Of a DNA stretch of 64,000 nucleotides, positions 3,100-64,000 are shown piece by piece. Source of the DNA: Bolinopsis microptera (Eukaryota; Ctenophora; Tentaculata; Lobata; Bolinopsidae); NCBI RefSeq assembly GCF_026151205.1, contig NC_087072.1, forward strand, positions 10,268,169 to 10,332,168, written 5' to 3'. Numbering within the stretch: the stretch's first letter is position 1; every line of letters starts with the position of its first letter. The notes under the pieces are model-generated. The model did not search any database and was not told where the DNA came from. It saw only the letters and a list, made by a program, of their open reading frames with translations. The position numbers and the translations under genes are program-made.

Positions 3100-4269
3100 T
3101 TAAGCGATCGTTTTTCTGCGAACAGTGTTTCTACGAAAGTTGTTTATGTTCATGTGATTGTTTAACTTTATCCGCGAAGAAGGGGGAGATTTGCTCGGCG
3201 AACCCAACCCTCTCTCTTTCGATCCCTTCAAACAACTCATAGTCCACCGTCTCAGTGCCTGAACTCTGAAGTAATACAGAACAGGGTTGAGGGCAGCATT
3301 AACAACAACGGAGACAACTTCTGCGAGCACCCAACTGTAGAAGAACATGAATGTACTCATGTAAAATGGTCGAGGGTAAAGGCTCAAGAAAGATCCTACC
3401 ATGTAGACCGCGTTATTAGCAAAACAGGGCGCGTTACAAATTAGGAACAACCCTGTAAATAAAGCAAGGGTCACAGAAGCTTTTCTGTTCCTATCACTCA
3501 TATGTGACACAGAGCTCTTGCGAGCAAGTTTGTTGACTGATATTGTAAAACTGATCAAAGTAACGATGGGGGGGATTCCTAAACTCAGAACGAATAGAAT
3601 CTGTTCAATCTGAGGGAAGGAATTACCAACTTTAAAGTCGAGTTCGTAGTAACAGTACACGTTTACTTTGTCATAAGAGTAAAACATGTCGGAACCACCA
3701 TGGTGGACTACCAGCCCACTCCAAATGAACATGATGAGAATGTAGATCCCAGAAGAAGCAACAAAGACATTCTTCCTCATTTGGTAAAACGGAAAAACTA
3801 TTGCTATCGTCCGTGAAACACTCAACAACATCACCAAAAACATGGACATTCGAGCCAGAAAGTAGAAAACAACATTCCATCCCACGCAGAATATCTGATT
3901 ATCAAGAATACCTGGCATTCTGTTGTTAAATAACGATATCATAACGGGGATCGAGATCAGACATATGAAGACGTCTAGTCCGCAGATAGAGCTGTAAACC
4001 AGACTGGCAAAGTCTCTTCTGCAGCTGTAAAAGAAAAGAGAGATCAAGTTTCCTGGGAGCCCTATCAAAAGACACAACATCAGAATAAGCGCTATGAGTA
4101 CATCGTATCTTCTGTAAGCCTCGACTGATAAGAATTCTTCGACATCAGGGGTATATGTGGGAGAATCAGTAGAATTGACACCACCTTCACTCAACATAAA
4201 GTTTCCACTTTCTTCCATTATTTCCAGTTTTTGGGTTTCTTTCACACTAGGGCCTTGAAGATGAATCAT
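3100..4269 (-). CDS. Rhodopsin-class (class A) GPCR, orphan, intronless
   Basis: This is a 389-residue seven-transmembrane receptor in one exon. Landmarks are an extracellular N-tail with an NST glycosylation site (residue 32), TM1 with the GN pair (residues 73-74), and a TM3/ECL2 disulfide pair (C128 and C206). The DRY motif is degenerate and reads SRT (152-154). TM6 has CNAPCF, and TM7 ends in NPVLYYF (328-334), the canonical NPxxY. The cytoplasmic tail is about 50 residues, basic and Ser/Thr-rich, suitable for kinase or arrestin control. The start at 4269 is the first ATG; M18 is an alternative. It is an expanding lineage-specific family, as shown by the tandem pseudogene copy at 322-1417. 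The ligand cannot be predicted. The non-canonical SRT suggests altered G-protein activation. Confidence 0.9.
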   Translation of the reverse strand: MIHLQGPSVKETQKLEIMEESGNFMLSEGGVNSTDSPTYTPDVEEFLSVEAYRRYDVLIALILMLCLLIGLPGNLISLFFYSCRRDFASLVYSSICGLDVFICLISIPVMISLFNNRMPGILDNQIFCVGWNVVFYFLARMSMFLVMLLSVSRTIAIVFPFYQMRKNVFVASSGIYILIMFIWSGLVVHHGGSDMFYSYDKVNVYCYYELDFKVGNSFPQIEQILFVLSLGIPPIVTLISFTISVNKLARKSSVSHMSDRNRKASVTLALFTGLFLICNAPCFANNAVYMVGSFLSLYPRPFYMSTFMFFYSWVLAEVVSVVVNAALNPVLYYFRVQALRRWTMSCLKGSKERGLGSPSKSPPSSRIKLNNHMNINNFRRNTVRRKTIA

Positions 4270-4289
4270 TAAAAATAAACGTAAAAGCC

Positions 4290-10400: not shown

Positions 10401-10591
10401 ATATGGTATTATACCACGTGTTATACCACGTGTTATATGGTATTATACCACGTGTTATACCACGTGTTATATGGTATTATACCACGTGTTATACCACGTA
10501 TTATACCACGTGTTATACCATGTGTTATATGGTATTATACCACGTGTTATACCACGTGTTATATGATACTATACCACGTGTTATACCACGT
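10401..10591. repeat. Tandem array of CACGTG E-boxes
   Basis: A 34-36 base unit, made of 'atggtattata' plus two copies of 'CCACGTGTTATA', is repeated about five times. By direct count nine perfect CACGTG hexamers are present, plus three one-base variants (CACGTA, CATGTG, CACGTT), at 12-base or 22-24-base spacing. CACGTG is the binding site of Myc/Max, USF, MITF and CLOCK bHLH factors. The array lies about 0.7 kb upstream of the LGR-like receptor start. Confidence 0.9.
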
Positions 10592-16398: not shown

Positions 16399-19300
16399 CT
16401 GCGGACTCAATAATATTGATTTGATTTGAAACTTTTACAAATAGTACATTATACAATACAGCAAAGAGAATTAAAAATATACGACATTATTATCATGAGG
16501 CATTTGTAGGGTAAAAGTTGTAGTCCATATTGTATAAATACTAAAAGCATGGTTAAGTGGTACAAGTTCTGGGGGTATACGTATTACAAGTAATAGTTCT
16601 ACTCCCAGACTCACTAACACCACCTCCATCTAAACACACAAAATGTATCTAAAACACGCAAATTTAGAATTATCAAAATAAATACACAATGTATCCATGA
16701 CCTGACTCATAATGCGCCAAAAATTGCGCGCGTATCATCACACAGCGATTAAAAGCAAGATTACAGTCGGATATAAAGTTCGCGTAATCCAGTTAAGTAT
16801 ATTAACTGAGGACTGCACCAGGGTCAAATCATGGTGACAGAACGTAAATGTTATTTAATATTATTTAATAGATTTCTTTTTATATTATAGTTGTTATATT
16901 CAGTATCGTGACCGGTCTATCAGTGGCGGGGGCCCACATATAAATATCATTTGCACTCATTAACTTAGTCAGGGTCTGTCAATTTGTCCCAAAAGTGTTT
17001 TGCCAGGTTTGCCTTAAAAGTTCCGGCATCACTTATCTCTTTAAGGTCAGTTGGTAGGTCATTCCAGACACTGTGTGTTCTGAAGAAGAAGCTTCTCTTA
17101 AAGGAGTGAGCTTTTGCTTCCACAGTACACTTCAGGGAAAGGTGGTCGTGTCTGTTCTGTCGCCTCTGGTTGATATCAGGCATTTGAGATGTATCAACTT
17201 CATTATATCTCGAGGGTTGCCTTATGTTTGAACGCAACCTACCCTGTTCACTGGTTGTTATCGGGGTTAAATAAGGTGGGAGCTTCAGAACAGATTGACC
17301 ATTGTATATCTGATGGAATAATAGTAAGTCTGTGTATTCAAACTTCAGCTCCATTGGCAACATGTCTAGCTCTCTTAATCGAGCCAAGTATTCTAAGTCA
17401 TTATAGTGATGATCCTGTTCGCCAAGGATCCACTTAACTGCTCTGCGCTGAATGTTTTCAACTTTGTTATTCAAGACAACACTTGTTGGTCTCCAGACAA
17501 CACTGCAATTTTCGAAAAGGCTCCTAACCAGCGCTAGATAGAATGCCCGTTTTTGTTTACGGTCGTTAATAAACCGTAGAGTTCTTTTCATTAGACCTAG
17601 ACGAGAACTAGCTTTCGTACAAAGGTTGACTATGTTCTCCTCCCACTTAAGGTCAGTTCTAACAAAGACCCCAAGGTCTTTTTCACTCTGGACGAAGTCT
17701 AGTGCCGTTCCATCTAGGGTATAGACAAAGAGCTGGAAGGGGAAAAAACTCAAAATTCCCTTTTCACTCATTTTGCTAGATATAGAGAGCACCTTGCATT
17801 TATTTGGGTGAAACTTCATTTTGTTTCTTACTGCCCAGCAATGCAGGGCGTCTATGTCTGCTTGTAGGATCTCATGGTCTCTCCAGCCCGTGATTTTACG
17901 CCATATTTTGGTGTCATCAGCGTATAGGGCTATCTTTGTACCTTCACTTACGCATTCTGACATGTCGTTAATAAAGAGTACAAAGAACAGAGGTCCTAAA
18001 ATGGAGCCTTGGGGAACCCCAGATTCAACATTCTTAAGTTCTGAGTGGGATCCCCCAATTATAACACACTGTTTGCGGTCTTTAAGATAGTTCATAATGA
18101 ACTTCAACAGTGTACCATTAATTTCAAATTCCGATTTTAATTTCTTTAGGATGACATCATGGTTAACTGAGTCAAAGGCCTTGGCAAAGTCAAAGTATAC
18201 CACATCAGTTCTGACATTATCGTTGATAGACAGAGAGAGACAGTCTATATACCCGACCATTTGTGTAGTACAAGACCTCTGAGGAAGAAAACCATGTTGG
18301 TTGTCATGTATTTTATGCTGGCATTTTGCCAACAGTTCATCTCTCACAATTTTTTCAAAAATTTTCATTACAAGGCTGGTGAGAGAGATTGGCCGATAAT
18401 TTTCAACTAGAGTTTTGGGGCCTTTCTTATGCACAGGTACTACGTTAGCCAATTTCCACTCAGATGGTATCTGACCTATGTTATATGAGATTTTAAAAAG
18501 GCTCGAGAGTGGATATGCAATACTATCTCTACAGTTCTTTAAAATTTTGCCATGGATACCATCTGGACCAGCAGCTTTATTAACATTGACATCTTTTAGA
18601 ATTTTTCGGATTCTGCTGGTACTGAACTCAATGTCGTTTACTGAGTCATTACTATAATCAATATCAACATCATAATTACTCGCTTCGGAAAACTGTGCAG
18701 CAAAATATTCATTGAACATTTCAGCTTGGTCTAAGTGATTGTTTCTAAATCTGCCGTTATAGTTTACTGTTCCTGGTATGCGAGTAGATTTTGATGTCGA
18801 TTTGACATGTTTCCAGAATTTCTTTGATATAAGAGCTGGATCATCATCATCATTCAAATTTGATATCATTTTTTGGTCGACCAAATTTTGAAAATCTTTT
18901 CTACATTGTGAGAACTTTTCATAGTCCTCAGCTAGGCATGATCTTTTAGATTTGACTCGTAGTTTTTCTTTTTTGAGACACAGCTGATAAGTGTCAGAGT
19001 CAAACCAGGGTGGCTGATCCTTATCTGATATCGTAATAGTTGGGATTCGGTTGTGTATGTGATGGAACAGGATTTTCTTAAAACGGAACCATCCTGTTTC
19101 TGCATCACAGTTAAGGTGATCATCCCATCTAACTGATTTCAGATCATTGTTCAGGCCGATCCAGTCTGCTTTTTTGTAATTTAAGATTTTTCGTTTGGTG
19201 ACCTTCTTTCTAAACTTCCCCAGGACCGCCAAATTTTCAACAACACTTATCATATTACAGAAGAGAAGATCGAGGACCTTCCCTTTATCATGAGTGGGTT

Positions 19301-22300
19301 GGTTTATCATTTGTGTTAAGCCTAGGTCATTAAACAGATCTATAAAACGGCCACCAAGAAGTGTGGGGGACACACCGTCTGACCAGTTAACTTCAGGTAG
19401 ATTGAAGTCCCCAACTACAAAGTGGGCCTTAAACTTTCTCCGTCCTACCACATTTCTGAGGTGTTTCTCAATTTCATTAAAATTATTTTCACCAAGGGTG
19501 CCAACTCTATAGCAGGCAGTTATGCAGTAGCATGAGTTGTTTGATTTTAGGCTGACTGAGATCATTTCAGCCCTAGAGCTGACATCAATCTTGTCATTTT
19601 CAATACTGATGCCAGTCTTGACTGCAATAAGGACTCCGCCCCCCTTCCTTCGAAACTTATTTGGGTTATCAGGATCCGGGGGGTGGGATCTTTTGGATCT
19701 ATCCTTCCGATATATCTTGTAGATGCTATCAGGGAGGATCTCATTTTCCAGGTGCTCTTTTGAAAGCCAAGTCTCAGTCAGAACAATAACATCAGGCTTG
19801 TCTTCATAGATCTTAGATTGGAGCTCTAGTAGTTTACCAGCATCAAGCGGCATGTTTTTAGATGCTAGGCCACTAAAGGGGACAAGCCCTCTCAAATTTT
19901 GGTACATTACCTTTAGATGACTGAGGTTATTGTTATCAACTGGACCTGGGTTAAGTATGCTTGTATTGCAGATAACAAGCAAAACTAAGTTCAGAATGGT
20001 CGTCCAGATGGTGAACATGTTACTTAGGAACTGATGTCCACTACACTTAGCGGAAGAGTAACGTCTGGGACAACCATACTTCACTATCCATAGGGCTATT
20101 CCATTTTGTTTCTTTGAATAGATGATCATTAGGACTACAAGATTTGCACTGTTCATAAGGCAGTCCCAGTCATTGGTCAGGTGTAGTCCGATCTTGTACG
20201 AGCGATGCATACGAAATGTTTGGTCTGAGTATTCACTTGCTGTTTCAATGGCCCCCGCCAATAACAGACAGATCATATACACATATACAACAATCACTAC
20301 TCCATAAATCATCTTTAAAATAGCACTTTTCTCTATAGTGGTAATTGAATCTATATTTAATTTAGCATTGCATTTGACTTTGGGAGAGTATAGACCAATC
20401 ACTGTTCTGTGTTGTAAAAACGTGACTCCCATAAATTAACTTTGTCAGTGAATTTAAATTTGCCAAACAACAATTTTTTAGAAGTAAAAATTTCCATTGA
20501 AGGTGAATTTTAACATTATTCCCATTATCTACTAGTCAATTGTCATTTCTTACCTAGTTCATTAGGGATGTCAGTGAATTTGCAGTTATCTATCTCTAAA
20601 TGTAACATACACGTGATTCCACAGATACATCCTGCAGAATAAGTAATAGATTCTTCATTCAACTGATTATAGGTAGAGTAGATACATGATGGGGTGTAAA
20701 TTGGATCATTCCATTATAGTTTGACTAACTGAACCAACGATATAGAGCATTAGATACTTGTACCGCTTGACTAACTGAAATACAACACATTCAACATCAA
20801 TACCTGGAAAAGAGTCAAATTGGTTGTTAGACAGTTTCAGTGTTTGTATGGAACTGTCTCTAAACTGTTCAGGTAGGTTGGTGAGAAGATTTTTGGACAG
20901 GTTAAGATTCTTCAGTGATTGAGATATGTTTCCTCTCACGAACAGTCGTTCCAGGGAGTTCGACGATGCATTAACGTAGCATAGATTTGGCATTTCCAAC
21001 AAGCCATGAGGTAGTTCCCTCAGAGCATTGCTGTTGCAGGAGAACTTCTGTAGATCCCTGAGTCATTGTGTAAGAATCAATCTGTACACTTATATCAACA
21101 TATCCTATTATCAGTAGAATCAAAAGTTATCGTATCAAACATCATAGGATACACTACCCACACGTCATGTCAAATAAACCACATTATATTCACACCTGTC
21201 CCACAAGAATTCACACACTCGCCCAGCTGCTCTCACACATGACGGCACTGTACATATAACTGTGGTAATACATATAAATTGTTATAAAGTTATAAGGTGT
21301 CTCACATAACTTGTTATATAGTGTCTTAAGTGTAACTTTAAAACTTAAGGACTAATGATCAATACTGTGCGACATTTTGAAGTTGTTTAGGAGTCGCAGA
21401 TAATGATTTTTTCACACATTAAACTAGTTCGAAATTCAAATGTTGTATTACACAATGTTAGGACTATAGCACAGCTACGAAAAGCTGGCGCCTAATTTTT
21501 GAGTTCTTAGTGTAATTCTATAGCAATTAGTGTAATTCTATGGCAATTTTACCAATAAATACCTCATAGCAGTGATTGAGTCAGGAAGGGTAGGACCAAT
21601 ATCATTATAACTCAAATCCAACTCTACGACATGCATTGCAGAAAGAGATCTAAGCCAGGAATCAGCAATGTACGGCAGACCCAAGTCATCCCAATTGAGG
21701 GAGAAGTGGTCAAAGTCGTGCTTGGTCAGGAGCAAGTGATAAATACAATCCTCTGTGTCCTCGTCAGTTCCATTCGACCTTCCTTAACAGTTACTGTGAC
21801 CAGTTCAGCAATGAAATCAGGTTAAATGAAAAGCTGAGCGTCTTGTTAAGTATAGCAGAAACTGCAAAAATTCATTCTAGCATTTTCAAGTTCAAACATA
21901 TTTCATGCGAAAAGAAACACTTACCTTTACCCTCCAGTATTAGTTTTATGGGAACTTTCAGATCAAAACTCTTGTCAAAAAACAGCTCAGTGGGACCATC
22001 AGATAAAATATTGTCTCCAGCAAACGCACCGTCCACATCCACACCGTATTCTTTTATCCGACCTTCTAGGGTTAGATTTTGAACAGCAGTTGACTCCAGA
22101 GCGAGACACTGAGCACACATCATGAGATATGACGCTGTGAGTAAGTGACCGTTCATTGCTGCGTGCGACACATTTTCTGCTAATTGCCGGGCCCCTTCTG
22201 TTATCAATAACTCTACGGTCTGAAATGATGAGGCCATTAGAGCTACTTTTCTCTAAATAAAGGTAAGATTATAAGCTCTTTTATCTGAAAGGCTATTTAA

Positions 22301-40134: not shown

Positions 40135-41430
40135 TCACTTTAAATAGTTTTTAACAAATGCATTAAACAATCCTTTAGAGTTGATATCTGCCTCTAAAAC
40201 AGCCAAGGATAGTTTAGCAGTTGAGGACAAATCTTCTGTGTCAGTGAAACCAATCTCTTGGGATCCATCAGCTTTTAATTGTGTGAGATGGATATAGAGT
40301 TTCTTCTTTTCATTTCTTTTCATTTCATTAATCAAGTTTCGATCTTTTTCACTGGCTTCATATTTAGGAGCCATGAAGTTAGTTATTTGTCCATTATTGT
40401 CAATCAAAGCAGAAGTGGTCATATGCCAATAAGTACTATTGTCGTTGTAAATTTTAGTAATAGACATTGCAAAGAGGTTCCCTGCAAGCCAACATGTGTT
40501 CTTACTATGTGCCTCAAAAATTTGTTGCCACAGCACAATTGGTACTGTCTTAAATATAGATTGATGATCTTCAGAAAATTTAACAAATTTAATCTTCTCA
40601 CTGATGTTGTCATTTTCAGATCCAGGGCAGGACAAACACAAGCTGAAGTGGTGTTTAGCCTCTGCAAACTCGAAACATGCAAGGTGACACATAGCAGACC
40701 AATAATATGATTTCTTCCAATTACTTTGCACCTCAGTAAGTTTATTACACAAATCTCTACATGTGTTTAACTTGTTTTGATTCATCTCACAGTTTAGAAG
40801 GTTACTGAGAAGGACACCATACGATTTGTAGTACTGCTCCATAACCTCTTCATTCGAAATGTACATCACTTTTTCTCTAATCTTTTCATGCCAATCTGTC
40901 AGTACTTCAATACCTCTTCTATAAAACTTTGCTGCTGCACTGAAGTCTTTAGATTTGAACTTGTGGTTGCCTTGAACTTTTAATTCCTTCATTTTTTCCT
41001 CAATTTGGATAGGGATTCTAGGTGATGTTGCTGCAACATCCTCTTTTATCTCAGGAAGCAAGAGTTCCAATTGTTGCTTGACATAGTCACACAAACTGTC
41101 TGGATCCTGTAGATCATCTATAATTCCAATCGCCGAGTGAGGATCGTTTTTATGAAAAAGGGAAAGTGCAAATAAAACTTGACTGTCAGGAAGTCCCAAA
41201 GATGCTTTGGCACTTTCCATACAATCTCTCCAACGATCTCTTCTATAGTGACACTCAGCAATTTTGGAGTGACAGTAATCAACATTGGCATCGTTTTCAC
41301 TCTCTCTGACAACCTTAACAAAGTAACTACAAGCAGCATCAATCTGCCCATCCTCCAATGCTGCTTTTGCTTGCGATATAAACAAGGAATCTTCATCAAA
41401 ACCTCCAAAATTGGTTGCCAATTCGTCCAT
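40135..41430 (-). CDS. TPR-repeat protein, intronless coding exon
   Basis: From ATG at 41430 (MDELATNFGGFDEDS) this encodes 431 residues. The frame is open further upstream, but a 'tttctgcag' acceptor lies just before this ATG, so the upstream residues are probably intron. Tetratricopeptide-like helices are visible at about residues 13-43 (AKAALEDGQIDAACSYFVKV), 50-80 (SKIAECHYRRDRWRDCMESA) and 147-177 (KVQGNHKFKSKDFSAAAKFY). The last has the G8-x-x-x-F-K-x-x-x-[F/Y] pattern of co-chaperone TPRs. More helical repeats follow at about 220-310. The C-terminal 120 residues are unassigned. A scaffold or adaptor role is likely but the partner is unknown. Coding sequence in one exon suggests a retrogene or a naturally intron-poor gene. 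Confidence 0.82.
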   Translation of the reverse strand: MDELATNFGGFDEDSLFISQAKAALEDGQIDAACSYFVKVVRESENDANVDYCHSKIAECHYRRDRWRDCMESAKASLGLPDSQVLFALSLFHKNDPHSAIGIIDDLQDPDSLCDYVKQQLELLLPEIKEDVAATSPRIPIQIEEKMKELKVQGNHKFKSKDFSAAAKFYRRGIEVLTDWHEKIREKVMYISNEEVMEQYYKSYGVLLSNLLNCEMNQNKLNTCRDLCNKLTEVQSNWKKSYYWSAMCHLACFEFAEAKHHFSLCLSCPGSENDNISEKIKFVKFSEDHQSIFKTVPIVLWQQIFEAHSKNTCWLAGNLFAMSITKIYNDNSTYWHMTTSALIDNNGQITNFMAPKYEASEKDRNLINEMKRNEKKKLYIHLTQLKADGSQEIGFTDTEDLSSTAKLSLAVLEADINSKGLFNAFVKNYLK

Positions 41431-41814
41431 AGCTTTCTGCAGAAATGTTGTGTTGAATGTTGATGGGATAAGAAAAATTACTAACAGATGACCAAACCTT
41501 GGTCCATAATTAAAATTAATATCTAAAATGACATGAAAGGTAACCATCATTTAGCCCCAGGACAATCAAATAATACAATATAAGGCAGTTTAGTTGATCA
41601 GTCACTTGATTTCCAATCAAGAACGTTTCAAAGGTCAGTAAATATTAACTTAGGAGCCCCCAAGCCGGTTCCGGTTGCGCAGCACCAATGGGAGTCTAGG
41701 GCAAAGCCCCAGAAAATTTGTATGGTTTTTAGTGTAATTTTGTTAATTTTTAATGAAAGAAAACAAGATGAAAAAATTTGAAAACTGTAAACAATGACAA
41801 ACAATTAATTTAGA

Positions 41815-47389: not shown

Positions 47390-49543
47390 AGGGTGTATAT
47401 CGTTAGACAAAAGGAAAACTGCAGTTACATGATAATTTCCGGTAATTTCGGTAACAATACAATAAATCGAAAATTCAGTAACTCGATAGCTCCACTATCA
47501 AAAGTAAATAAAAGTTAAATAATCTGTTTTTTAGTACCTGTGGATGAATAATCGTTCAATTTGCTATAGCTGCAGAATAACAAAAACTATACAGAAACAT
47601 TCAATATTCTAAAATGTGTCTATTACTAGTGTAATTGTCGTAGTTAAAAAGGTGCAAAAGTATGAACCCACTCATTCGAAATCAGAATCAGACTGCAACC
47701 AAATGTTCAGGCGATCAAGATAAAACAACGTTATAAAACAAGATTATAAAACATTAAGGAACTACAGTCAAACCTTAATTAACATGATTTCCAAGTATAG
47801 CAACCTAAACCTCTGCTCATCTGACAGTAAAGTAGCAAGCACATTGTTAAGCAGTTAGGGAGAGAGAGGGCCGAGAGAAAATTTCTCTCTGTCTCCGCAG
47901 CTAAGTGTCGTGGTCAAATTAGACCTCTCACCTCTTATTATATATTTCAGATAGAGCTGCTGCTGTGATAAATTACCGTGTATATTACTGAGGATAAGTT
48001 AAAACCACCTATTTTGCTTCCTCAGAGTTTTGTCAGCACTATACCGAAAAAGCCAGCCCTATAACTCTTACCGTTTTATTAATTTATTTATTTGTAAATT
48101 ACATGCGAACGAGCACACCCACTCATGAGCTCATGGATTAATCACTAATGTTAAGTATATTCAATTATACTGCTTTGGTTTGGCATAATGTATCTAAATA
48201 ATAGCATGATAATTTATCGATAATCCGTTTGCGTAATGCGTACGTGATAATATGATTCCATCTACATTATCACGTACAGTAATTTGCACATCAGCACTAT
48301 AAGTAATGTAATACACATTGGAAGCATGGGTAAAAAGAATCGCATTACAGATATTCCTGGAGACAATATACTAAAGTGGCATAGTAATACACACATACTA
48401 TTCAAACGCTAAATTTAACTGTTGCAAACTTAGTTTAACAAACTTAATATTCATAAACATTAAACACTTGCTAATTATGTTACTATTTCATTCAATCATC
48501 TTCTATAATCATTTCACAAATTAGGTAATAACATAGATAACTATTAACTATTCAAACTTATTATGTCATGTTCCAGATGGTATGTAAACATATCATGCAA
48601 AAAAAACAGAATAATGCTCAGAGTATACCCAAACAAGTTGCCGGGTAAGTTTGAACTTCTTTCACCCTCTTTAGTCTACAGTTTACAGCCAGTCTGCAAT
48701 TAGCTGGCTGGATTGAGCTGAAAAACGATATTAAAATGGTGATTCAATACCTACTTACTCACCTGCATCAGTCAATTTGGGATAGTCCTGATTTAATTAG
48801 TTCACAATATAATGTGAAATGTCATTCAAATTAAATCTTACTTAATCAATAGTCATTGGCCACTGTTAGTTAAATACTACTGACCTAATTCTATAAAGCA
48901 AATCTTGTATTGGAAGTGAGCCCAGCTTTTAGTTCTTCGCTGACTTTTGATCCACCCATGGCCATCTCTCTTCGTTATATTATATTTAAAATCTGAGCTG
49001 TACAAACAGCACACAATTTGTGATTATCACACATCAAATTGCCTTGGTTTGGCATGGGTGGAGTAGCCGTTTCTAAATATGGATTAATTAGGCATCCAAT
49101 TGGTAAAGTTAGGTTATCATGATCCCAATCCCTAATATCTGTAGGACCTTAAGTAGGGTTTTGTGTTGTCAAGCCCAAATTTCTTCACAGGAACTTCAAC
49201 AACCATTTCAAGCACCATTTTGAGACGATTCCAAGATCGTATAGACAGACAAAATAGACTATTAAAAATTGTATTTCGGGGTATAATAATAATTAATAAT
49301 GTGTATTTCTTGTGATTAAATGTGTTTCTAGAGCAAAATGCACAGTTTTGCTAGTACTGCAGTTAAGTTTTTCAAAATTGTCAATAAAGCAGTCAAGCAT
49401 CATGTATGTTATGTTGAGCATTCTCAACCAGCAGATGTGGGAACTCCCACGAAAGACCAAAACAGATCTAAAGAGACAATTAGCAAAATCGGAAAAATAG
49501 ACTTGAATTTGTTTATATAATTTATCAAGCGTATGTTATTGCC
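47390..49543. other. Intergenic upstream of DAP
   Basis: This should contain the DAP promoter. There is no clear TATA box and no coding exon. A short 60-codon frame at 49338-49520 is unsupported. Confidence 0.5.
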
Positions 49544-50492: not shown

Positions 50493-50706
50493 AGGGGGAG
50501 GGGGGATTATGGTGGATTACAAAATATTATGACGACGTAATATATGTACTCTTACATAATTTTAAGATACAAATGTTCACCCATACCTGGCTGACAAGAT
50601 TTTATACATGGTAAAAACCTCAATTCCATCATCTTCACTGACATAAAAGTTTGGAACAGGGTATCCTTTGCCCAATCTTGTAATTTCAGTGATTATTTTT
50701 ATCCGT

Positions 50707-51827
50707 AATCGTATACATTGCCAGTCAGTGTAACTTCGTTTAACTTGATACCTGCCACCATGGACCATGAATGTTTCTAGACACTATCCTTTTGATATTG
50801 AGATATTGGTATCTCAGATCACGTGTACATCGTTCCTTTTTTTATGACACAGTAATTTATGAGAACGAATATTCAAACAATATACACATAATATAGCAAT
50901 GGCCAATTGGCTGACTATAAGGTCATGGCCTGAACAAACAATTTTTTTTTAAAAATAGTCAAGTGATGCTAAAGCAGAGCACAAATGTGTAATAAGTTAA
51001 TAGATTAAAAAACTGATTCATGTGATGCATTACGCAGAGCACAGATAAAAATACTGATTCAATGATTAAAAATTATAGCTGTGAGTGTCAATAAATTACT
51101 GTGTCATAAAAAAAGGAACGATGTACACGTGATCTGAGATACCAATATCTCAATATCAAAAGGATAGTGTCTAGAAACATTCATAGTCCATGGTGGCAGG
51201 TATCAAGTTAAACGAAGTTACACTGACTGGCAATGTATACGATTGCCGTCTCCCTCTCTCACCCCTGACCGCTATCAGGGTGGGTGCTCCTGAGGATTGA
51301 GAATCTAATCCTGGTGCGCATGTAACACATAATAGCCGCATAGTCTTCTCCTCTCTTCTGGGATGATGAAAACTGGCCACGGGCCTAAATATTACATATC
51401 AATCAATTACAATTCATTAATATTACCAATATTAAAAACTATCGAAAATATTCAAGAAAGTATTCTCTAGCCAAAGGGCTCAATATTTAAATCTAAATCT
51501 TCAATATCCCTTCAATATCCCTCTCTTCTGGGATAGTTTTTCAGCGAGTCTCTTGTGGTATCTTGTGGCTTGTGGACCCCATCCGCCATTTGTTGAGTAG
51601 TTATTGACACTCACAGTTATTGACACTCACAGTTATTGACACTCACAGCTATAATTTTAATCATTGAATCAGTATTTTTATCTGTGCTCTGCGTAATGCA
51701 TCACATGAATCAGTTTTTAATCTATTAACTTATTACACATTTGTGCTCTGCTTTAGCATCACTTGACTATTTAAAAAAATTGTTTGTTCAGGCCATGACC
51801 TTAAAGTCAGCCAATTGGCCATTGCTG
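50707..51827. repeat. Nested inverted duplications
   Basis: Two inverted pairs interlock. Arm Y (about 50707-50862) is repeated inverted at 51088-51244. Arm X (about 50896-51090) is repeated inverted at about 51629-51827. Identity is high, with a few substitutions and small indels. The two inner arms (51088 boundary) abut. Near 51599-51645 'ttattgacactcacag' is tripled at the edge of arm X. Arm Y holds ATG-initiated frames on both strands (MVAGIKLNEVTLTGNVYD in one) that could be duplicated exon sequence. I recognise no gene. Confidence 0.85.
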
Positions 51828-51829
51828 AT

Positions 51830-54800
51830 ATTGAATGTAATTTCTCATTTTAGTAAGTTTTTATCCGATTTTAAAGTTACATGTTATTTTGAGGAAAAAG
51901 TCATTCAAACAACATAACATGACATGTACGTTCAATTAAATCAAATGAATCAATCGGCAGAGCAGGTTCATAAATCATGAGCAATAAATCTGACGAAAAA
52001 GATCCTTCGCCACGCTTACTCGGAAGCGGGCACTTTGCCACCTTATCCGTACCTCATAAAAAGTTACATGTTATACCATGTGCACAACTCTATGAAAAAT
52101 TGCATGTCCAATGGTTAAATTCCTAAATATGATTTTTTTAACTCGTGAGTGAAAATTAAACAGATTTGGTTTTAGCGCTCGATTTTCATGCGATGTTCAT
52201 GCTAAAATGTGCAAATATGCGCGGCGCACCAAAATTAGACAATTATTTTTCCTGTATACACATATATACTAAAACAATTAAATTGCGTTAGCATTAAAAT
52301 TTTAATTTGTTAAACCGTTTTTTACTTTTTAAAATTGAAGATTTATAGGTTGAAAGGAGCCGTTACTTTAAAATTTTAATTAATTTCATTTTTGTTTTCG
52401 GCTCAATTTTGAATTCAAAATTCAAAATTATTAGAATCCTTAGAATATTAATTAAAATTCTTAAAATATGAGGAAGACGCTAATTTTTGATTAACGATCT
52501 AAGCCCTTTTCAACTTGACCATTGTTAATGGTCTGGCCCGGCGCGCGCTACTTCGTAGCACTTGCTAAAAAGCGTGCATCTTATTACATTTCGAGAAGAA
52601 AGCGGCGCGCGCTACTTCGAAGAAATTTAGACGAGTAACATCCGTCAATTTTCAACTTGTAGCGGCCAATTTGCAATTAATACATTTTTACAATATGTGA
52701 TGCGCGGCGCGGTCTAGTAGTACATCTCGCTACGAATTAAAAGAAGGTGATATAAAATTAAGTTTGCATCAACAATTATCAATTATGTAATGTTATTGTA
52801 GCACGATGCGTTACTGTGCCGCGCCGCGCACTCAATGAGGCTTCTCACAGCGACATGGCTAGATCGGCGAAATGCGCTACTGTGCCCCGCCGAGCTGCCA
52901 TGAATTGACATCGTCAATTAAGTAATGTTACCAACTAGCTTGCTGGTATTTAGCGTGCTTTTCTCATTTATTGCAAATTAACAAAAATATTTGTTTTAAA
53001 TATTAAAACATCGACGAGTCCAACTTGGCGCGCGTCTTGGTAGGTTATAACGAACGCGCGTGCTAATATGTTTTATTTGTTTTACTTATGTAATATAATT
53101 CACATTACAATCGCGATCTTCGAAATTGTTCTGACATTTGAAACCAACTTGAATAGATGTATTTTCGGACTCTGATTCCAAATCACCCCCATGACATTTA
53201 AAATGCTTCCCTGGCGAGATATTGGCGAAAAACTGTCTCGATCACGTATAATATTGTATCACGTTGCGACCCCCACGGTCGTCCTGACGATACAGGGGAG
53301 CCGCGCACTTCGTGCGCGGCGGGTCATACAACGTATGACAAGTATAATATGACCGTTTAAGGAAGTTCATTTAATTTCTTGTTATGGTTAGTATATAACT
53401 AACTAACTATATATAATAGGGTTTCAGCATATACTTTTGTTAAGGATTGGGTTAAGGTAAGGGTTGGGATCAAATTAGACGGTTAGGGTTTCGAATAGTC
53501 GTTCAGAGTCAGCTAGAGAATGGATTCAAAAAGTCACGTGACAGTCGAGTTCGAGTGTAGAGTAATAAATCATCATCTAATCCAAGTTATAAACCTACAA
53601 AGTGCAAGAAGCTCGAAAGCTTAACATTTTTTGTCTGCTGCAAATAAAAATTAAATAAAAATAACAAAATTTATGCTCAATGTGATGTTCATTATAAATG
53701 TTAGCAAGCTGGGTATCATATATGTATTATTAATGGCAATTAACATAAAACGCCGCGCGCACAATACAAATATCTTGTGAATTCATAAGTTGAGTTAGCA
53801 TATAGTTTGCGCTCTATAGTCGAGATATATATTTCGCGTTGGATAAGATTGTCCGTCTGCTTTTATGGAAGGTCGGATCAGGAATGCTAGCGATTATTTA
53901 GAAGTTGACTTGGTATTTGCGGCAAACTGCAGTGCTCATCTAGTTTTCATCTGGATAAGTAATACCATCTGCAAGGGGTCCCATCCTGACATGTCTTAAT
54001 TTGTCTGTTTCATCATGATCTATGGTCGTTTCATATCTTTCATTCAAGGTTCCTAGCGTTCTTAGTATAGCTGATTTACTGACGACGCAACAGGGTGACA
54101 TCGAAAGTCTGCCAACTAGCTGATTCGATTTTGCTTTTAAAGTTACACCTTTGTTTAACTGGTGAGCAGGAATCTTCCACCTTCATTGTTCATTGCGATA
54201 ACTTTCAGGGGCACTACCATGAACGGGAATGATGTTGGAAATAAGTATGATCAGTATTTTCAGTTTCAACTGCTCGACTGTCTTTAGATATTATATACCG
54301 CCTATTAAGTGCCCAAACTTTTGATTCGCTTTACTAATTTAGTCCTCTAATGCGATTTCACGAGCAGTTGACAAATCATTAGCGCTGTTACAGTTAAGTT
54401 GCATTTTGCAGGACACTTACTTCGTTGTCTTGAAATTACGTGATAATGAGTACGTTTTAATATAGCAGCACGGAAATCCGTCGCGTCTTTCGGCAATTTG
54501 AACCTCACGTGCGTGTCGAAACACTTTTTCTATCGCCTCTAATTATTGTTCGGACCACGAATGCCTTCTCCTCATTTTGTGGTAAAACTAATTCGATTGG
54601 CTCAGGGCGGAGTTTAAACCCGTTAGCTCTGATGGTAAGTAGGAAATCTCCCGAACCTTTATTTTAGCAAGCTTCTGTCATCGTCAGATACTTGCTGCAT
54701 AAAATAATATGAGTCAGTGTCGTTGTTGGTCGGACCGCCTGCCCCCCTATTCTGGCCCACTGTGGTCCGTGCTCTCTTGCCTCGCTCCCCCTGCTTTGAT

Positions 54801-57800
54801 GCAAAGATTTCTGTCTGGTCTGTTTGGTCACATGACCTTACCTGCACTATCTGCTCCTTGGAGAGAGTGCCAACGAAAAGCTCTAAATATTTGTGTTTTA
54901 CGCTTTGTCCTTGGACATGATCATTCGATAGAAAAATCATGAACCAAGGTAATGCAATAGATTACAATTCCAAATCGGATTTGATATGATATATTGGTGT
55001 TGTTGGATGGTCATATCAAGATGCTGTAACCTGCTGGGGCGTTGTAACTTGTAGCCTGGCTCTATTGCAGTACGTGCCCCTTCAAATTTAATTTAGTCGC
55101 ACATATGAATTACCTTTCCCCTTTGAAGATGAGCCCATTGTAATTCTGTATTTCCCGAATATATTTTTCATTACTTCATTACTCAAAGAAAGTAGCCACC
55201 TGGTACCAGACTCGGAACACAGAGGCCTATGATCTCCGAGATCAAGGGATTACAGGGTCCTATGTCATAATAAACAAGACAGCCTAGCTTCTACTTAGCT
55301 AGTAATCAAATTATGTTCTATCTGGTGATTGAGATATTCCGATATCGCCACAAAATTGATAAGGTATTATTATTCGCCACAAATCAATATCATTTTTCTT
55401 CATATCCAACTCATTCATAAAACCTATTGTCTTGAGTCCCATGTTTGTGCCCGGTCCTCTAATTAAGCCCGATCGCGATCTCTATTACCCAATCGAATTA
55501 GATACTTCATCATAATTCGAACATTAAGAGATTTAATCCATGTTTTATCGGGTGATTTGTAATTCTGGCCACGTACTTCTCAACTCACAGCTCTCTAGAA
55601 TAATCTGAAGTCAAGGCTCGGTCCGGTTTTATTTCATTATATTTCCATTGATTTGATTAAATCAGGTGGAATTTTAAATGCTTTATCGCCGACCTTCGCT
55701 CCGCTCAGTAACCATTCTTTCTGACCTAACCAACCGTATTACTTATTATTAGCTTACTATCTTGAGACATGTACATATTATCAGTCCACATTTATGGAAT
55801 TCGGTTACAACCAACATTCCAAAAGTAGGAAATGTGTCTTGTCATTATCAGGAAGCAGCTATCTGCCAAAATGTCAATTATGTAAACAACTGACAGCCAG
55901 CCGAGTGTTTTCTTGTTAGCTATTTTATTTATTCCGATAAAATAACATGCCGGGGCGCGGGGTACGTGATGGAATCCTCAGAATTTTATCTAGATTTTAT
56001 TGGCACTGTATTATTATCATCGTGTAACATGTGCACTCTCTTGTTTTGTAGACAATCAAATTGTTGGTAAAGGATTAGCAGGATGAACTTAATGCGCAGT
56101 CTCATACCCAATTATCTCTGATTGGCTTATTCGACCACGTGATCTCTTCACAGCTTCCTCATTGGGCCTCACTATTTGGCATTGGAAGTTGGTTCGCAAG
56201 TATAAGACTGGTGTTTTTATTTTAAAGTTCTAGCACTTTGTTTTCAGTCATTTGAAGATTTGTTAAGTACTGGCTTGCAATCAGTAATTTAACTTCACCT
56301 CCTTTTAACATGAGCTAAAGTGTTATCACTTGGGTTTAACATATTTCAGTAGCCTGTACGCTGCGGACATTTTAACATATTTATGATACTCTAAAACCAT
56401 TCGCACTACAATCATCACCAATCACGAAATTTAGTACTTGCTATGTTTATTCAGTTCAGGTTAAACAATAAACGCAGTCTCAGGGCGTTCACTACACAAA
56501 AATTGAAAGTTCTCTGTTTTTCCAGTTCAGTACTGATCTAATTAGAAGCATTCTATTGTATCTGGCGGTCGTTACGTAAATTCGAGGCTTACGTTACGTA
56601 AATTCATGACTTTCGTGCTGGAAAAAGATTTAATTAGACCAAATTCTACAATCACGATAGGGTTCCACGGAAGTTCTTTAATTAGGACTAGGTTTCTAAC
56701 ACGATTATCTTTAAATATTATCTCATCAAATTCACAGGAAAAATCTGCCTTTTACCGGCGGATCGTGCAACTCGACATTTTTGTAAACGCCTGATCTTCT
56801 TTTCTGGAGATAACTTAATTGCGGTGATCGAAATGTAAACATTGAACTGATACGATGCAAAGGATATCAAACCAAAGCAAATTTCAACATGCATGACGGG
56901 AGCTCTTTGATTTGGAAGTGTCCTGAGAAATTAGGAATGGGTTGGGTTATCGTGAAAAATTCGCACTTCTTCAAGAGATAAGGAGCGCGTACCGCCGTAC
57001 CGCGGGGTTTTCATTTTCCTAATTTTCTTTTATTACAAGGTTTGAGAGCTTCATTTCGTTATCAAAGTCACAGCTGGAAGTTTCTAATCTTAGAGAAGTC
57101 TGGTATTATCTATATATTTTGGATCCCAGCCACATCAGTGTAGGATGCAAATACTGCATTCACGTCCAACAGATGTTTACAACAGGGGTGAAATTGAGTG
57201 GTACGCCTGCTCAGGTCTTCCCTCTTTCCCTGTTACTGAACATCCAACTTTTGAGTTGTAATATGTTGTTCATTCTTCAATTAACAGTGTCTGGCAACCT
57301 CCGCAACTGCGCACACCAATTACTTACTCTTCCAACTTTCAATTATCTCATCAATCGCTCCTCTTTCCTGACCGCGCTCAATAGCTCCATTTGGCTGTCA
57401 GGAGATCTCTAATTCCAGCCTCCTCCACGTTACCGATATATATATACATATCAGGTACTCTGCAGAAACGCGGACACTGCAGGACCGGTCATAACAAAAC
57501 CAGGTCACGTGCTGTAGACATCACGTGTACCAACTGTCAGATTACATCCCTGTAGTCTGCACGGCGCTGAGAACTAAATCTATCGCAAATCCATTGCATC
57601 GTCACCTCATTTAGCTAGGGATCTTTTATCTACTGTTCAGCTTTACAAGTGCACCACTTAATTGCTTTTTAACACTTATATTATTGTGGACTGGTACATT
57701 ACCTACACCCGGGTGGCCCCGTGTTTTCTGATATTTTGTGTGTATTGAGTGTATTTGTTATTACAAATGCCTGCGGTCTCACTATATAGTATATTAGTGA

Positions 57801-58700
57801 TAGGCTAGACGCAACAGGAAAATCTTATAACAAACTTTGAGACACCCTTTTGCGTTGTTCATGCCCGTTGTTGAGATATTTGCTTATACAATTTTATATT
57901 TCATCGTTGGGTACGTGCCGCTAACCAGATATTCGATCGTATTCAATCTTTGTTCTCCGGGGAAATTTATTTATTTTTATTAGTGTTATTAACAAAATAG
58001 AATTTCACGCTCTACTTTCTTTATTTTATTTGTCCCTCGATTTCGAATTCCTTGTTAATCATCATTGTTAATCATTGTTAATCATTGTTAATTATCGCCT
58101 TTATTTAATTTAGGCCTCCACGGCCACACGACACAAATATGACACGTCTTCAATCAAGATATGATAACAGGTTTACAGTGCATTAGATTACCATTAAGTT
58201 TTGTCGCAAGTTTTTATTTTACCTCTCTCACGCGTGGGAGGATACATTAAAATAAAATAAATATTAATAAAACAAAATTTGATATAATATTCTCACATCT
58301 TATCTTGTCTTCGAAAAACAAACAAAAGATAGCATCATGGTAACTTTGTTTCGGTAGATGCGCTCACACCTAAATTCATTTACTGAGTTGAATTATCGCT
58401 TTGAGAGATTCTCGCTCATTTATGCACTGCATTACTGCGTGGTGACACGGCTACATTACATAGCTCAAGCTGAGATGCTGTGATGAGAGGCTACTGAGTT
58501 AGGATCGTGTCGCTTTCGTGTGGTCTGTGTTCGTTGGCTACAAATTTGCCGAACATAAGGCATATCGGCATGGTATGTTTTTGGTTAAGTATTTTGGCCT
58601 TAGCTTTGTATTGTGTATATAGCCCAATTATAAAAGTCGTTTCATGGTGGATATAAGCGTTGGTAGTCGATTACCTCTTGATTGTGACATCTTGGCAGCA
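51830..58700. other. Non-coding upstream region of myc
   Basis: I see no supported gene. CACGTG E-boxes occur at 53535, 54506, 56136, 57506 and 57522. CpG-rich patches at 52535-53330 and a 10-base tandem (TGTTAATCAT, four copies, 58053-58096, inside 'gttaatcatt' runs) are the other features. Some short frames (54659-54940 minus, 57119-57412 plus) look partly protein-like but have no motif. Confidence 0.5.
53309..53327. repeat. GC hairpin with TTC loop
   Basis: CCGCGCAC, TTC, GTGCGCGG form an 8-base perfect stem. Similar 'gctacTTCgtagc' and 'gctacttcgaag' hairpins lie at about 52548 and 52614, each beside GGCGCGCG. The recurrence suggests a small dispersed hairpin family. Confidence 0.6.
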
Positions 58701-58706
58701 AACAGC

Positions 58707-58945
58707 GACTAAGATCTGAAAGCTGCAGCCCTGCAGGGCAAATATCCAAGAAGTTGGACCTTCCCACGTGAAATTCCGCGGGAAATAACATCCCACTATT
58801 CCGAAACGTAACATCTCTTTCGCAACTCTAATGGTGCTCGACTAAGATCTGGCACTATCCAAGAAGCACGCTCGTTCCACGTGGGGTTTCGCGGGAAATA
58901 CTGTCCCAATACTCCGAATCGTTTCATCATTCGCTACTATATAAA
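58707..58945 (+). promoter_or_regulatory. Candidate myc promoter: duplicated E-box/E2F module with TATA box
   Basis: Two diverged direct repeats (58707-58825 and 58840-58930) both begin 'gactaagatct'. Both carry CACGTG (58765, 58878) followed within 10 bases by a palindromic E2F site: TTCCGCGGGAAA at 58774-58785 and TTTCGCGGGAAA at 58887-58898. After the second copy lies TATATAAAGG at 58938-58947, which places a plus-strand start near 58970. Vertebrate MYC P2 also combines an E2F site with a TATA box. A good donor (AAAG|GTATGTG) at 59515 could end a non-coding first exon that splices to the acceptor at 63221. The link to myc is inference. Confidence 0.6.
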
Positions 58946-58947
58946 GG

Positions 58948-61900
58948 ACAATGACGCTATTAGTATTAGCTCTATTTGTGATGCATATCTCATTAATTGT
59001 TTTATTGCTAACGATAGAGTCACAACTTCTATGTGTCGCGTAAGATGTAACTACGCTTTCCCAAGTTGCCTCATTAATTTACCCACCAACAGTTTGATAC
59101 ATTTCCTTTGCAGCTCAGTGTCTACTTATACTGTATCAAGTCCACAGTTTTCTGTCCGAGGCTTCTAATTGAGGATTAAGGGAAATTACCTCCTCGATTT
59201 ATCAGTTTGAACACTTAATCTACCACACAGCACCCTCCTCTAAGTACAGTTTCCCCAAATCCCGTGCTGGAAAATTATCTTCCAATCCTACATTACCCGG
59301 TACTTGCTAGTTAAATGATCGTTTAACTGCTCGTTTTAGCAGCAAGACTCCTTCAATCCCACACACATCGTATCATAAGGACACGTGACAGAACTTAAGA
59401 ACTCGGGACCCCTAATTCCTTACTTCTTAATTTGGCGTGGATTATATGCTGAGATTTTGATTTGACTGTCACATATTATCCTGTCGGCTTGTATTTCACT
59501 GTCCTTGGTTTAAAGGTATGTGTGAGGCGTGTCATGGGACTCATTTAGTTTCATGTCTTGTACTGTGTTTGTAGTGTGACAGTGAGACAGTGTGTGCTTT
59601 GTTGCAATCAATCTTGTGGCGTGCCGGGATGATGATCTAATTTGTTATTTCAGTCTGGGAGGGTAAATTACGGGTTTACTGCGTATTTATGTATTTAGTA
59701 TTCTGGAACTAAGTGGGTGATCGTATGACAAATAAAGAAACTTTTAATCTTTTTGCCCATTCCCGCGCCCTTGAAGTTCATCAAGGGAGAGATAGTGATT
59801 CAGAATAATGTTATGCATAAATTTGAGCTTTCGTCACGTTCATGGAAAACTTCACCCGACTCCTGCAAATTATCATTTAAATTACCTCCCCGATTATTCC
59901 TTGACGATCTTTAATTACTATTCATCAAGGTAATTATCTGTAACGTAATGCTACGGAGATTCTCCTTTCCGGTCCTCGTGAACATTTGCACCTGCAAAAT
60001 TTGTGTAAATATCGTGGAAAGTACTGATTATAATGGTACCCAATTTCGTCATTACCAAGTTAATTAGTCTTCTCGAAACTCCATGTTAACGAATGACAGA
60101 TAATTGAATTCCTTTCTTCAATGTTAAGACAATGAAGGGAGTCACGTCTTATCCGATTTTCGAGTCTAAAATTTACCGTTCGTTAAGTTTCGATTGTACT
60201 TCATATCAACATTCAGGAGATATCTCCTTAATCCTTATCCTTCTTTCGAGATAAAGCGTTAATTTAACCTCTAAAAGCTTCAGTGTTAATTTTGATGCCC
60301 TGAATTGCCCTACCCATTTAATGTGATTTGTAATTTGATAATTAGCTAAGCTTTTAGAAATAAACCTATTAGCCTGGTTGTTAATTTAGGGGTGAACCTT
60401 TGTACTGGAGATTACCAGATAACGGCCGGGCAGGTGCACTTTCCCTTGTTGGAACAGTTTGGAGGCACACGTGAGTTGAGTTAGTTTATTACACCAACTA
60501 GTATGTTGTTCCCACTTCCCAGATGGGGTCCTTTTCTCTTCTCTTGTTTAGACTGTACCTCTTGAGTTTGTCTGGGCAGCACAAAGCCATTCATTCTGCC
60601 CCCTTCAAAGACATCCAATCGTGGCAGTGCTGGTTCCTTGGTGTCCAATGAGGTACCCCTATGGGGCCTCGTGACACCACCAACTCCAAACACCGGCATG
60701 TGTTTTGAAATAAAAATCATTGTACCTTCGAGGAATCATAATAATTGGCACAGATGATATAATATTTATATGGACTAAAATAACCGGTCCCATACTCCCA
60801 TAACATGACTCATTCCAAATTCTATGGTAGTTCATATCCAGTGAAAGTGGCACTTCTTAGTTCTTTTCATGTAAAAGCAACACCGTTCCCAGCAGACCGA
60901 GTGACGACAAGCTGAAGCTGAAACCTCAACATTAATGTTTCTCCCAGGCCATGCCCTTATGACTTTCTGCCTTTTCATTTTGCACTTCTTTGCTAAGTTC
61001 GACAGAAACTCCCCAAGCTTGTTGTTAAAATCTGCCTCTGGCTCGACTTTGACCACAGCAAAGCGCAATGTTACCTTCCTGTGGTATGTTAGTATGTCAT
61101 TGTCTCATTTTGTTAGTGAGCTACTTTACATCAATAACATGAATAAGTTTCAGTCATGAGCTTGTGTGTAGTTTCAAATCGATTTCCCATTAATTTGAAT
61201 ATTTCAGATATTGATAATCAAATCATAATCAGACATCGTGAGTATTTCCAGTAGGCTTGCGTAAGTTGTAACTACGGAAAATTTAGGCTTCTTGAGAAAT
61301 CACGGAGATTGAAACCTAGTCTGTCTTAATTAGATTAACTTATAAACTCGAGAATGAGCATTAACTTAGTCCTAGTTTACGTCTTGACATCATACTGTAG
61401 CACCCATCCGGTAAATAGTCATGAAACGTCCTTAATTCAACCTCAGAACAATGAACTGAATCAAAAGTCAGTACTGTTAAATCACTTTATCATGTCTGTA
61501 TTAGATTGAAAGACGGAGCGCTCTGGTTGGATACATCTGGGTACCCCCCGTGGATCGAGTCTAAATAGCGCACTTCTTGTTATAATAATCTTAGCTTAAA
61601 AGCTCACACAAAGCGGCCGCTTTATTACGTGTGCTTTTACCAGGGCTATATTTATAATGATCAGTGGAAGCAACTCCAGACAATGGGCAAGAGAGGGCAG
61701 CTGTGGGGTAGAAGAAGAAGGCGCCAAGGGGCAAGGGAGGTAGTTCATTGTCTTGCAGCGGAGCTCTGTTTCCCAATTTCCCACTTTCCACGTATCGCTG
61801 TACTATGTCACCAGATGATGGTACACTCGCGTAGGGACTCCGTGCTGTGTTGCTGCAGAGCTTGTACAAACCTCTTCAACACATATAGTGTGTCATGAGC

Positions 61901-63221
61901 AACACATATTGTGTGTCATGAGCTCTGTGTTAAATGAGGTCATTCATTATTACTCCTTCTTTCTCTCTTCGCTACAGCCACTCACTCTGCACTTTACAAC
62001 ATCACAGCACACGTCCTGTATATATATGAATGAATATATATTTATATATAGTTGCGTATTTATATATAAGTGTATTTGCTGTTAGGCGTGTTCGTTAGCT
62101 AATCAAAATTCGGCTTCACTCTAAGTTCTAACTCGCCGACAGAGTTGTTGGAAACAGGAATTCATTGCCCGCTTCCCGCTCGAATGGTGAAATAATTATA
62201 ATCACCCACCACACCGCATGACCATCTGTGATTAATGGTGAGACTTACTGTAACCAGATTTCAGAAATGAATCTCACGATTTCCTAATTCTTATGATCTA
62301 ATTTTGGGTGCGAGAGTGAGGCCCTTAGGCTACTCTCCCTGCTCTGCCAGGCCTGAGGTTCTTCAGTATTAGGCTTCTCAGTTTCTTAGTGTTTCGTTGT
62401 GATCACTTGTACACTCTGCTGTGCGTGTTGCCTCGCCCGTTAAAATAATCAAATAAGCTTTTACCTTCAACATGAAACGAGTGCCAATCGTATTACAATC
62501 AATCTTTCCCATACTTGATATCGTTCCAAGAAATTCTGGAAATTCTCGCAGTAAACATACGCTATTGATATCGTTGCTTTCTTCTCTGCTTGTACGTGTT
62601 CCAGTTTCAGTGTAATTGTCGGCCCGAGAGAGTCCAGATGAGGTGATAATCACTTGTTTCAATTTCCACCTCATTTCATATCAACACGAAATTTTATTGT
62701 TTTTCTTACATGCGAAAATTGGTGTGCCTTCGACCGGAGTATCGTGTGCTTTCCGTTATGGACGAAAAACGTGATTATTAATGTTTCTTTGTTGTTTTGA
62801 CTTCAGTTATGAATCAAGTTTTAATAATCATTGTGATTCACCAGTTTTAATCTTTGATGAACACGGGCGTGTTGCCTATAATCCTTTATTGTGGCTGGCA
62901 AGCATTATGCCGAATGATTTTATTCTAACCGTGACTTAATGTCTTGTATTTTTTATTTATTTTGATTTGTTTGTAAGCTGTCACACGATTATAATTCCTC
63001 CTACTAAGAACGGTCCTCAGCAACCGTGGCCATTATTAATATCGGAAATTTCTCGTAATGTCTTGGGTAATCTATTTACCGAAACGACAATCAAATTATC
63101 CGTGTAATCTTTAAATTTTATAAGTATCGTATATCCATTATCCTGTTTTAAGTCATTCAAGTACAATTATTACGGGTACATGAAATTTCTTAGAAAGGTC
63201 TAACCGACTATCTCTCCTTAG
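58948..63221 (+). other. Probable 5' untranslated exon and intron of myc, otherwise no gene
   Basis: E-boxes occur at 59382 and 60468. AAGCGGCCGCTT is part of a perfect 14-base palindrome at 61610-61623. The 61600-61880 stretch is GC-richer with no clear coding signal. Minus-strand frames at 60480-61070 look weakly protein-like but are broken and unrecognised. Confidence 0.45.
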
Positions 63222-63235
63222 AACTAAATGATATC

Positions 63236-63343
63236 ATGGCGATGCTATTTGACCAACCGCTTGACGACTTTTCTATGGACGACCTATGTGGATATAACAA
63301 CACGATCATCGATCAAAACTTCTGGGATGCTGAGGAGAACAAG
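63236..63343 (+). CDS. myc: Myc transcription factor, first coding exon
   Basis: ATG at 63236 opens MAMLFDQPLDDFSMDDLCGY and ends at NFWDAEENK with a strong donor AAG|GTATGT in phase 0. An acceptor (TCTCTCCTTAG) at 63220-63221 starts the exon 14 bases before the ATG, so the 5' leader is spliced. The acidic, aromatic N-terminus corresponds to the Myc transactivation domain. FWDAEENK joins directly onto the Myc box I of the next exon, matching the 'EDIWKKFELLP' context of vertebrate MYC. An upstream ATG at 63228 in another frame overlaps the start and could dampen translation. Confidence 0.85.
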
Positions 63344-63592: not shown

Positions 63593-64000
63593 TTCAATCT
63601 GGGACCACTTCTCCCGACCCCGCCCTTATCTCCGGATCAGCAGCTACAACTGAAACAGGAGGCCGAGGCCATGGAACCCTGGTCCACTGATGCTGAAGTA
63701 GAATGCTACTTTTCTCTCAACCAGAGCCACAACATTGTCCTCAACGACAGGATCTGGTGTGACGAGAAGATCCTGACTCCAACTGAAATGCTAGACAACA
63801 GTCTAAAACTGATGACCCCGATAATGGATGACATGGTGCTGAACCCAGCCCGGATCCGTCCCATCACCCCTCTAACCCCCATCAAGCATGAAGTAAACCA
63901 CTCAACTCCCCTCAAAGTTGACGAGTCCCCGATGAAGAAACAACGCCAAGCCCCTAAACCTCTACAAGCCCCTAAATTCCGACTTGAAAGGTTTCCAATT
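63593..64000 (+). CDS. myc: Myc transcription factor, second coding exon (runs off the window)
   Basis: The exon begins after ACTATTTCAG and reads FNLGPLLPTPPLSPDQQ. This contains an exact Myc box I core, LLPTPPLSP, the phosphodegron in which the Thr and Ser (T58 and S62 in human MYC) are phosphorylated by GSK3 and ERK/CDK and recognised by the FBW7 ubiquitin ligase. NDRIWCDEKI downstream occupies the place of Myc box II (QDCMWSGF-like), a weak match. TP- and SP-rich sequence follows (ITPLTPIKHE). The bHLH-leucine zipper lies beyond 64000. Myc pairs with Max and binds CACGTG, of which this window has unusually many. Confidence 0.9.

Follow-up and report, generated by a model that had tools for sequence, protein, structure and literature searches.

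The window, the whole 64,000-nucleotide stretch of Bolinopsis microptera DNA that we analyzed, runs at its 3′ end into a Myc gene, and the features described here lie mostly in the few kilobases upstream of it. The original prediction placed a Myc gene 4.3 kb downstream of the element discussed below, and the reading frame bears this out: it encodes 483 aa in four coding exons, its ATG lies at 63236 (4.3 kb from the element), and an HLH domain is encoded by the final exon. The best solved match (PDB) of the exon that encodes the bHLHZ region is the human-type Myc proto-oncogene protein (E = 4.6e-14). The Pfam family Myc_N matched the frame only below its cut-off, and the Myc-LZ family (PF02344) matched neither the frame nor the controls and is hence uninformative. 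By domain content and best match, the downstream gene is a real Myc. A search of the genome with the bHLHZ exon returned a single match, the exon itself; since the same search missed even Max, a diverged second Myc could be overlooked by it. The basic region of the protein, HNVLERKRR, appears compatible with binding to CACGTG. The genome also encodes E2F/DP-type domains: E2F_TDP (PF02319) matched four exons, which fall into three places (on C11, C1 and C13), the best at E = 3.6e-20. Two glutamate receptors of this genome were also compared with solved structures: for L012 the three best matches are 'ML032222a iGluR' and the eighth is 4zdm, structures from the ctenophores Mnemiopsis and Pleurobrachia, whereas for L011 a vertebrate-type kainate receptor ranks first. 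Elsewhere in the window, neighbouring GPCR-like frames occupy 414-4290 on the minus strand, and a 1156-aa frame at 16965-20435 resembles a LINE reverse transcriptase (both judged by eye).

Upstream of Myc, CACGTG is followed after 3 bp by TTYCGCGGGAAAT at 58765-58786 and again at 58878-58899, the two occurrences lying within a diverged direct repeat (Table 1); the general form of the module can be written CACGTG-N3-TTYCGCGGGAAA. Two diverged direct repeats, each with a CACGTG and then an E2F site within 10 bases, had been predicted, and this proved exact when the coordinates were re-read, as did the TATA element placed 40 bases past the second E2F site. The E2F sites had also been described as palindromic, which has to be amended: the palindromes are imperfect. 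An ungapped alignment of the direct repeat spans 73 nt (58743-58815 and 58856-58928) with an identity of 74%. Located 5′ of this ungapped portion, the block CGACTAAGATCTG begins at 58706 and at 58839 and is identical between the copies at all 13 positions; copy 2 lacks 20 nt that copy 1 carries between the first two blocks. The two modules are products of one duplication, not of independent events. The copies share 17 of the 18 letters of the E-box and the E2F site, compared with 37 of 55 at the other positions of the ungapped alignment (p = 0.018, one-sided Fisher test). The gap between E-box and E2F site is exactly 3 bp in both copies and its letters are wholly different, AAA in copy 1 and GGG in copy 2; its length has therefore been kept while its letters changed. 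The centres of the two sites are 12 bp apart, or about one helical turn. The blocks CGACTAAGATCTG (13/13) and TATCCAAGAAG (11/11) are conserved between the copies as well as the E-box and E2F sites are, and these blocks may be further binding sites, or the result of the constraint test may be a local accident.

Table 1. Features of the region upstream of Myc and of the 5′ part of the gene (window coordinates).
Feature	Position	Strand	Basis
Upstream second TATA-like element, TATAAAAG after CCCAAT	58629..58636	+	TATAWAAR scan
Module unit, copy 1 (CGACTAAGATCTG ... TATCCAAGAAG ... E-box/E2F ... TCCGAA.CGT..CATC)	58706..58815	+	repeat alignment
E-box CACGTG, copy 1	58765-58770	.	re-read from sequence
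E2F-type site TTCCGCGGGAAA, copy 1	58774-58785	+	re-read from sequence
Module unit, copy 2	58839..58928	+	repeat alignment
E-box CACGTG, copy 2	58878-58883	.	re-read from sequence
E2F-type site TTTCGCGGGAAA, copy 2	58887-58898	+	re-read from sequence
TATA box TATATAAAGG	58938..58947	+	begins 40 bp after second E2F site
Putative non-coding first exon, or outron start, of Myc	58969..59515	+	predicted; donor 59515
First Myc coding exon (putative exon), ATG 63236; acceptor-like ...ctccttAG precedes it	63222..63343	+	sequence reading
Second Myc coding exon, LLPTPPLSP box	63593..64000, runs past window	+	sequence reading

The E-box/E2F modules are far from a chance arrangement. With up to three mismatches allowed, a 22-base pattern of the module matched twice in the window against an expectation of 0.01. 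In the 5-kb upstream region (58235-63234) the E2F 12-mer is present twice when one mismatch is tolerated and CACGTG four times, with two close pairs of the two motifs, and none of 3000 dinucleotide shuffles of this region gave even one pair. When the genome (265 Mb, 232 contigs) was searched with the strict pattern at spacings of 0-20, two matches were found, both at Myc, compared with none in the reversed control. Taken singly, CACGTG is more frequent in the window than expected (31 versus 7), and the E-box by itself therefore has little weight; 9 of the 31 fall at 10415-10580, where they are packed within 166 bp at near-regular spacing. We also considered a repeat origin for the whole 281-bp stretch 58700-58980, a repeat present throughout the genome having been named at the outset as a finding that would count against the prediction. 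This origin was rejected: at E ≤ 0.001 the sole match of the stretch in the genome was itself, in a search that skips very common words. Comparison with Rfam gave no match in the window at the gathering score.

TATAWAAR occurs seven times on the + strand of the 64 kb, and for 0.66% of positions such an element begins no more than 60 nt further on. Because a further one of these few elements lies at 58629, two tandem start sites are possible. From the position of the TATA box downstream of the modules, transcription would be expected to start near 58969. Among all GT sites of 58950-63222, the best-scoring donor is 59515|GTATGT, with a score of 9.4 on a simple donor matrix, and its nine letters are identical to those of the donor of the first Myc coding exon; the acceptor-like ...ctccttAG ends at 63221. 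The putative exon 1 contains five upstream ATGs. Ctenophores trans-splice, with a spliced leader reported on 56% of Hormiphora Iso-Seq reads (PMC8527503), and therefore the 4.25 kb might just as well represent an outron. As a spliced-leader check, AATTTGAG was counted in the window and was found at chance level (7 versus 5.1). CpG density at the module is high, not outstanding, being reached by 3.4% of 2549 windows overall and by 6.2% of the 829 windows in 43-64 kb. The idea of a CpG island at the module was rejected, as the strongest CpG stretch of 43-64 kb sits at 52.4-53.1 kb instead. The most CpG-dense segment of that interval, 52450-53350 (CpG o/e up to about 1.96), has inverted arms GCGCGGCGCGG / CCGCGCCGCGC at 52701-52830 and GCCGCGCACTTCGTGCGCGGC at 53300, and could be a regulatory or a mobile element. 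A 154-nt inverted repeat, 99% complementary and 230 nt apart, is found at 50707-51244, with more inverted arms up to 51826, and is mobile-element-like.

These observations provide the basis for a model in which 58.70-58.97 kb would be a TATA promoter that starts the non-coding 5′ part of Myc and whose proximal control region would be a tandem duplication of one composite module; we put the probability of this reading at roughly 0.5. We predict that E2F/DP would bind GCGGGAAA and couple transcription to the G1/S switch, with repression, together with a pocket protein, in resting cells and activity in cycling cells. Myc/Max, or another CACGTG-binding bHLHZ dimer, would bind beside E2F/DP and thereby give feedback. 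The TATA box would fix the start near 58969, and the resulting Myc pre-mRNA would begin with a part that is non-coding. Two routes to the mature mRNA can be envisaged: exon 1 (58969-59515) could be spliced to 63222, or an outron could be replaced through spliced-leader trans-splicing at 63222. Of this model, binding at the E2F sites and E-boxes, the start site, the link to Myc and the feedback are what we infer. The evidence points both ways: the sequence elements with their spacing and uniqueness, the Myc gene, the E2F domains and the donor favour the model, whereas the distance to the ATG, the five upstream ATGs, the E2F-like cores nearer the ATG, the equally conserved blocks, the unexceptional CpG density and the weak results for MCM loci and for the E2F 12-mer (below) count against it.

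Position, strand and splice signals are all that links this promoter and Myc across the 4.3 kb to the Myc ATG, and a real promoter might instead serve another transcript, an lncRNA or an unrecognised short gene within 58.97-63.2 kb. We regard this as unlikely. The frame 58812-59168 is open, though without a Pfam match, and no Pfam family was found in the frames tested at 57026-57409, 58815-59165, 49296-49535, 50580-50783 and 54662-54961, the remaining frames of 43-63 kb being judged by eye only. The nearest tested upstream frame with a Pfam match (40138-41550) is on the minus strand, and the top-scoring donor in the interval points to a transcript that is spliced and runs on downstream. Less likely again is that the module is an upstream enhancer of Myc or a chromatin-loop anchor, the true start of Myc lying near 63.2 kb. 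The ctenophore Mnemiopsis is rich in enhancer-promoter loops, 4,261 chromatin loops being reported for it (PMC12221973), and weaker, 7-base E2F-like cores are found closer to the Myc ATG at 59760, 61727 and 62173. However, a TATA box 40 bp past the second E2F site is promoter-like, and from 58.9 kb to the end of the window there is no match to the E2F 12-mer with up to two mismatches.

Loosening the pattern gave 24 matches genome-wide, two of which are the Myc modules, whereas the reversed control gave 10; when as many as three mismatches were tolerated the numbers were 52 and 18, and one sequence, CACGCGAAATTGCGCGGCAAAT, occurred four times. We inspected 10 of the 22 other loose matches, at nine loci (L002-L010). 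Loci L003 and L004 share flanks, as do L006 and L007, and are therefore repeat-like. As the inspected matches include these repeats and a pair on C13 (L002), the excess of 24 over 10 is no evidence of a regulon, and a regulon of other module-bearing genes was rejected. The C13 pair (C13:9852235 and 9852468) is the sole other close pair among the 24 loose matches. Like the Myc modules it consists of two copies, here of the form CACGTG-GAATTY-GCGGGAAATA-CATCC, whereas its spacer is one base shorter, its copies are 233 bp apart and its surroundings are mobile-element-like by eye; two neighbouring ORFs had no Pfam match. The string common to the C13 pair and Myc copy 1, CACGTG-RAATTC-(C)GCGGGAAATA-(A)CATCC, is identical in 26 of 29 columns with two gaps, and of the five genomic occurrences of GCGGGAAATN{0,4}CATCC three fall on the Myc and C13 modules. 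A first shuffle test of the C13 match gave 39 against a maximum of 29 in 300 shuffles, ignoring that the locus had been picked for its motif. In a motif-conditioned simulation, in which the 22 spacer lengths were approximate, the alignment of C13 and Myc was equalled or bettered in 46 of 2000 sets. We consider the match between C13 and Myc copy 1 suggestive, not strong; either the two represent a longer composite site or they derive from one dispersed sequence. That the Myc modules are themselves remnants of mobile or repetitive sequence, with fortuitous motifs, is very unlikely: the similar pair on C13 (CACGTGGAATTYGCGGGAAATACATCC) does lie amid transposase-like frames (by eye) and some loose E-box/GCGGGAAA matches have common flanks and hence lie in repeats, but the 281-bp stretch matches only itself in the genome, the C13 stretch likewise, and the best local alignment of Myc and C13 ends at the composite motif.

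A Myc promoter with a TATA box and tandem E-box/E2F modules would work in logic like the E2F-controlled promoter of vertebrate MYC. The vertebrate MYC P2 promoter has an E2F site, a TATA-type core and a non-coding first exon, and in human MYC P2 no more than about 100 bp separate the E2F site from the start site. The Bolinopsis region similarly has E2F consensus sites and, with its TATA box, a putative TATA-type core upstream of Myc, with a non-coding exon 1 that is here predicted. It differs in that there are two E2F sites, tandemly duplicated and each 3 bp from a CACGTG, and in that the start site is putative. To our knowledge human P2 has no CACGTG 3 bp from its E2F site, and the resemblance is therefore one of logic, not of sequence anatomy; we claim no likeness past the E2F core. 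Composite E-box/E2F promoters form a class among cell-cycle genes. The adjoining CACGTG and E2F sites upstream of Myc are like those of this class and suggest joint input from Myc/Max and E2F; in contrast to the class, the 3-bp spacing is fixed in two diverged copies and the strict form occurs nowhere else in the genome. Should the predicted start site and its connection to Myc prove correct, the cell-cycle control of Myc could be read from this sequence in the lineage placed as the sister group of the other animals, and it would become testable whether Myc came under E2F control ancestrally or more than once. A more far-reaching version, in which Myc would be wired by a tandem, fixed-spacing E-box/E2F switch with Myc/Max and E2F side by side, and E2F control would predate the ctenophore split, strikes us as decidedly doubtful. 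The combination of a fixed 3-bp spacing, altered spacer letters and two copies would make a clean test of cooperative E2F/bHLHZ binding. Among the titles and abstract openings that a literature search returned, we found no account of a ctenophore Myc promoter.

The E2F 12-mer TTTCGCGGGAAA occurs 22 times in the genome, versus 12 times in the reversed control. The neighbourhoods of 18 of the 21 other places were examined, three on small contigs being left out. A second E2F core was present within 50 bp at 3 of the 18, compared with 1.0% of background positions (P = 7e-4), and two of these three places have it at an equal offset. No cell-cycle gene was recognised beside the 12-mer; this covers nine ORFs compared with Pfam, drawn from 8 of the 18 places, and, for the rest, frames of at least 85 aa read by eye. 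The nine ORFs matched a phosphatase (twice, at one locus), a kinase, an EF-hand and, below threshold, a transporter, and four were without a match. As a control for working E2F sites in this genome, eight loci around 14 MCM_OB exon matches were scanned for GCGSSAAA; the outcome was weak and ambiguous. Only L016 had GCGSSAAA within 100 bp upstream of an MCM-holding frame: there the classical site TTTCGCGCCAAA precedes the stop-to-stop frame with MCM_OB by 79 bp. This frame does not open with an ATG, and it may be an internal exon. One occurrence lay inside a frame and one far upstream at L017, one lay about 2.7 kb upstream of the frame at L013, and L014, L015, L019 and L020 had none. At L018, where the MCM match carried two stops, the two sites, E2F-like and 18 bp apart at 2070-2088, lie in what seems to be an intron; the gene is kinesin-4/KIF21-like, a kinesin by Pfam with a cysteine-rich tail (by eye). 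Finally, positions 1583-2161 of L017 (in gene orientation) hold a tandem-like array of ten CACGTG, each with AC directly after it (CACGTGAC); the array lies upstream of the MCM_OB exon matches.
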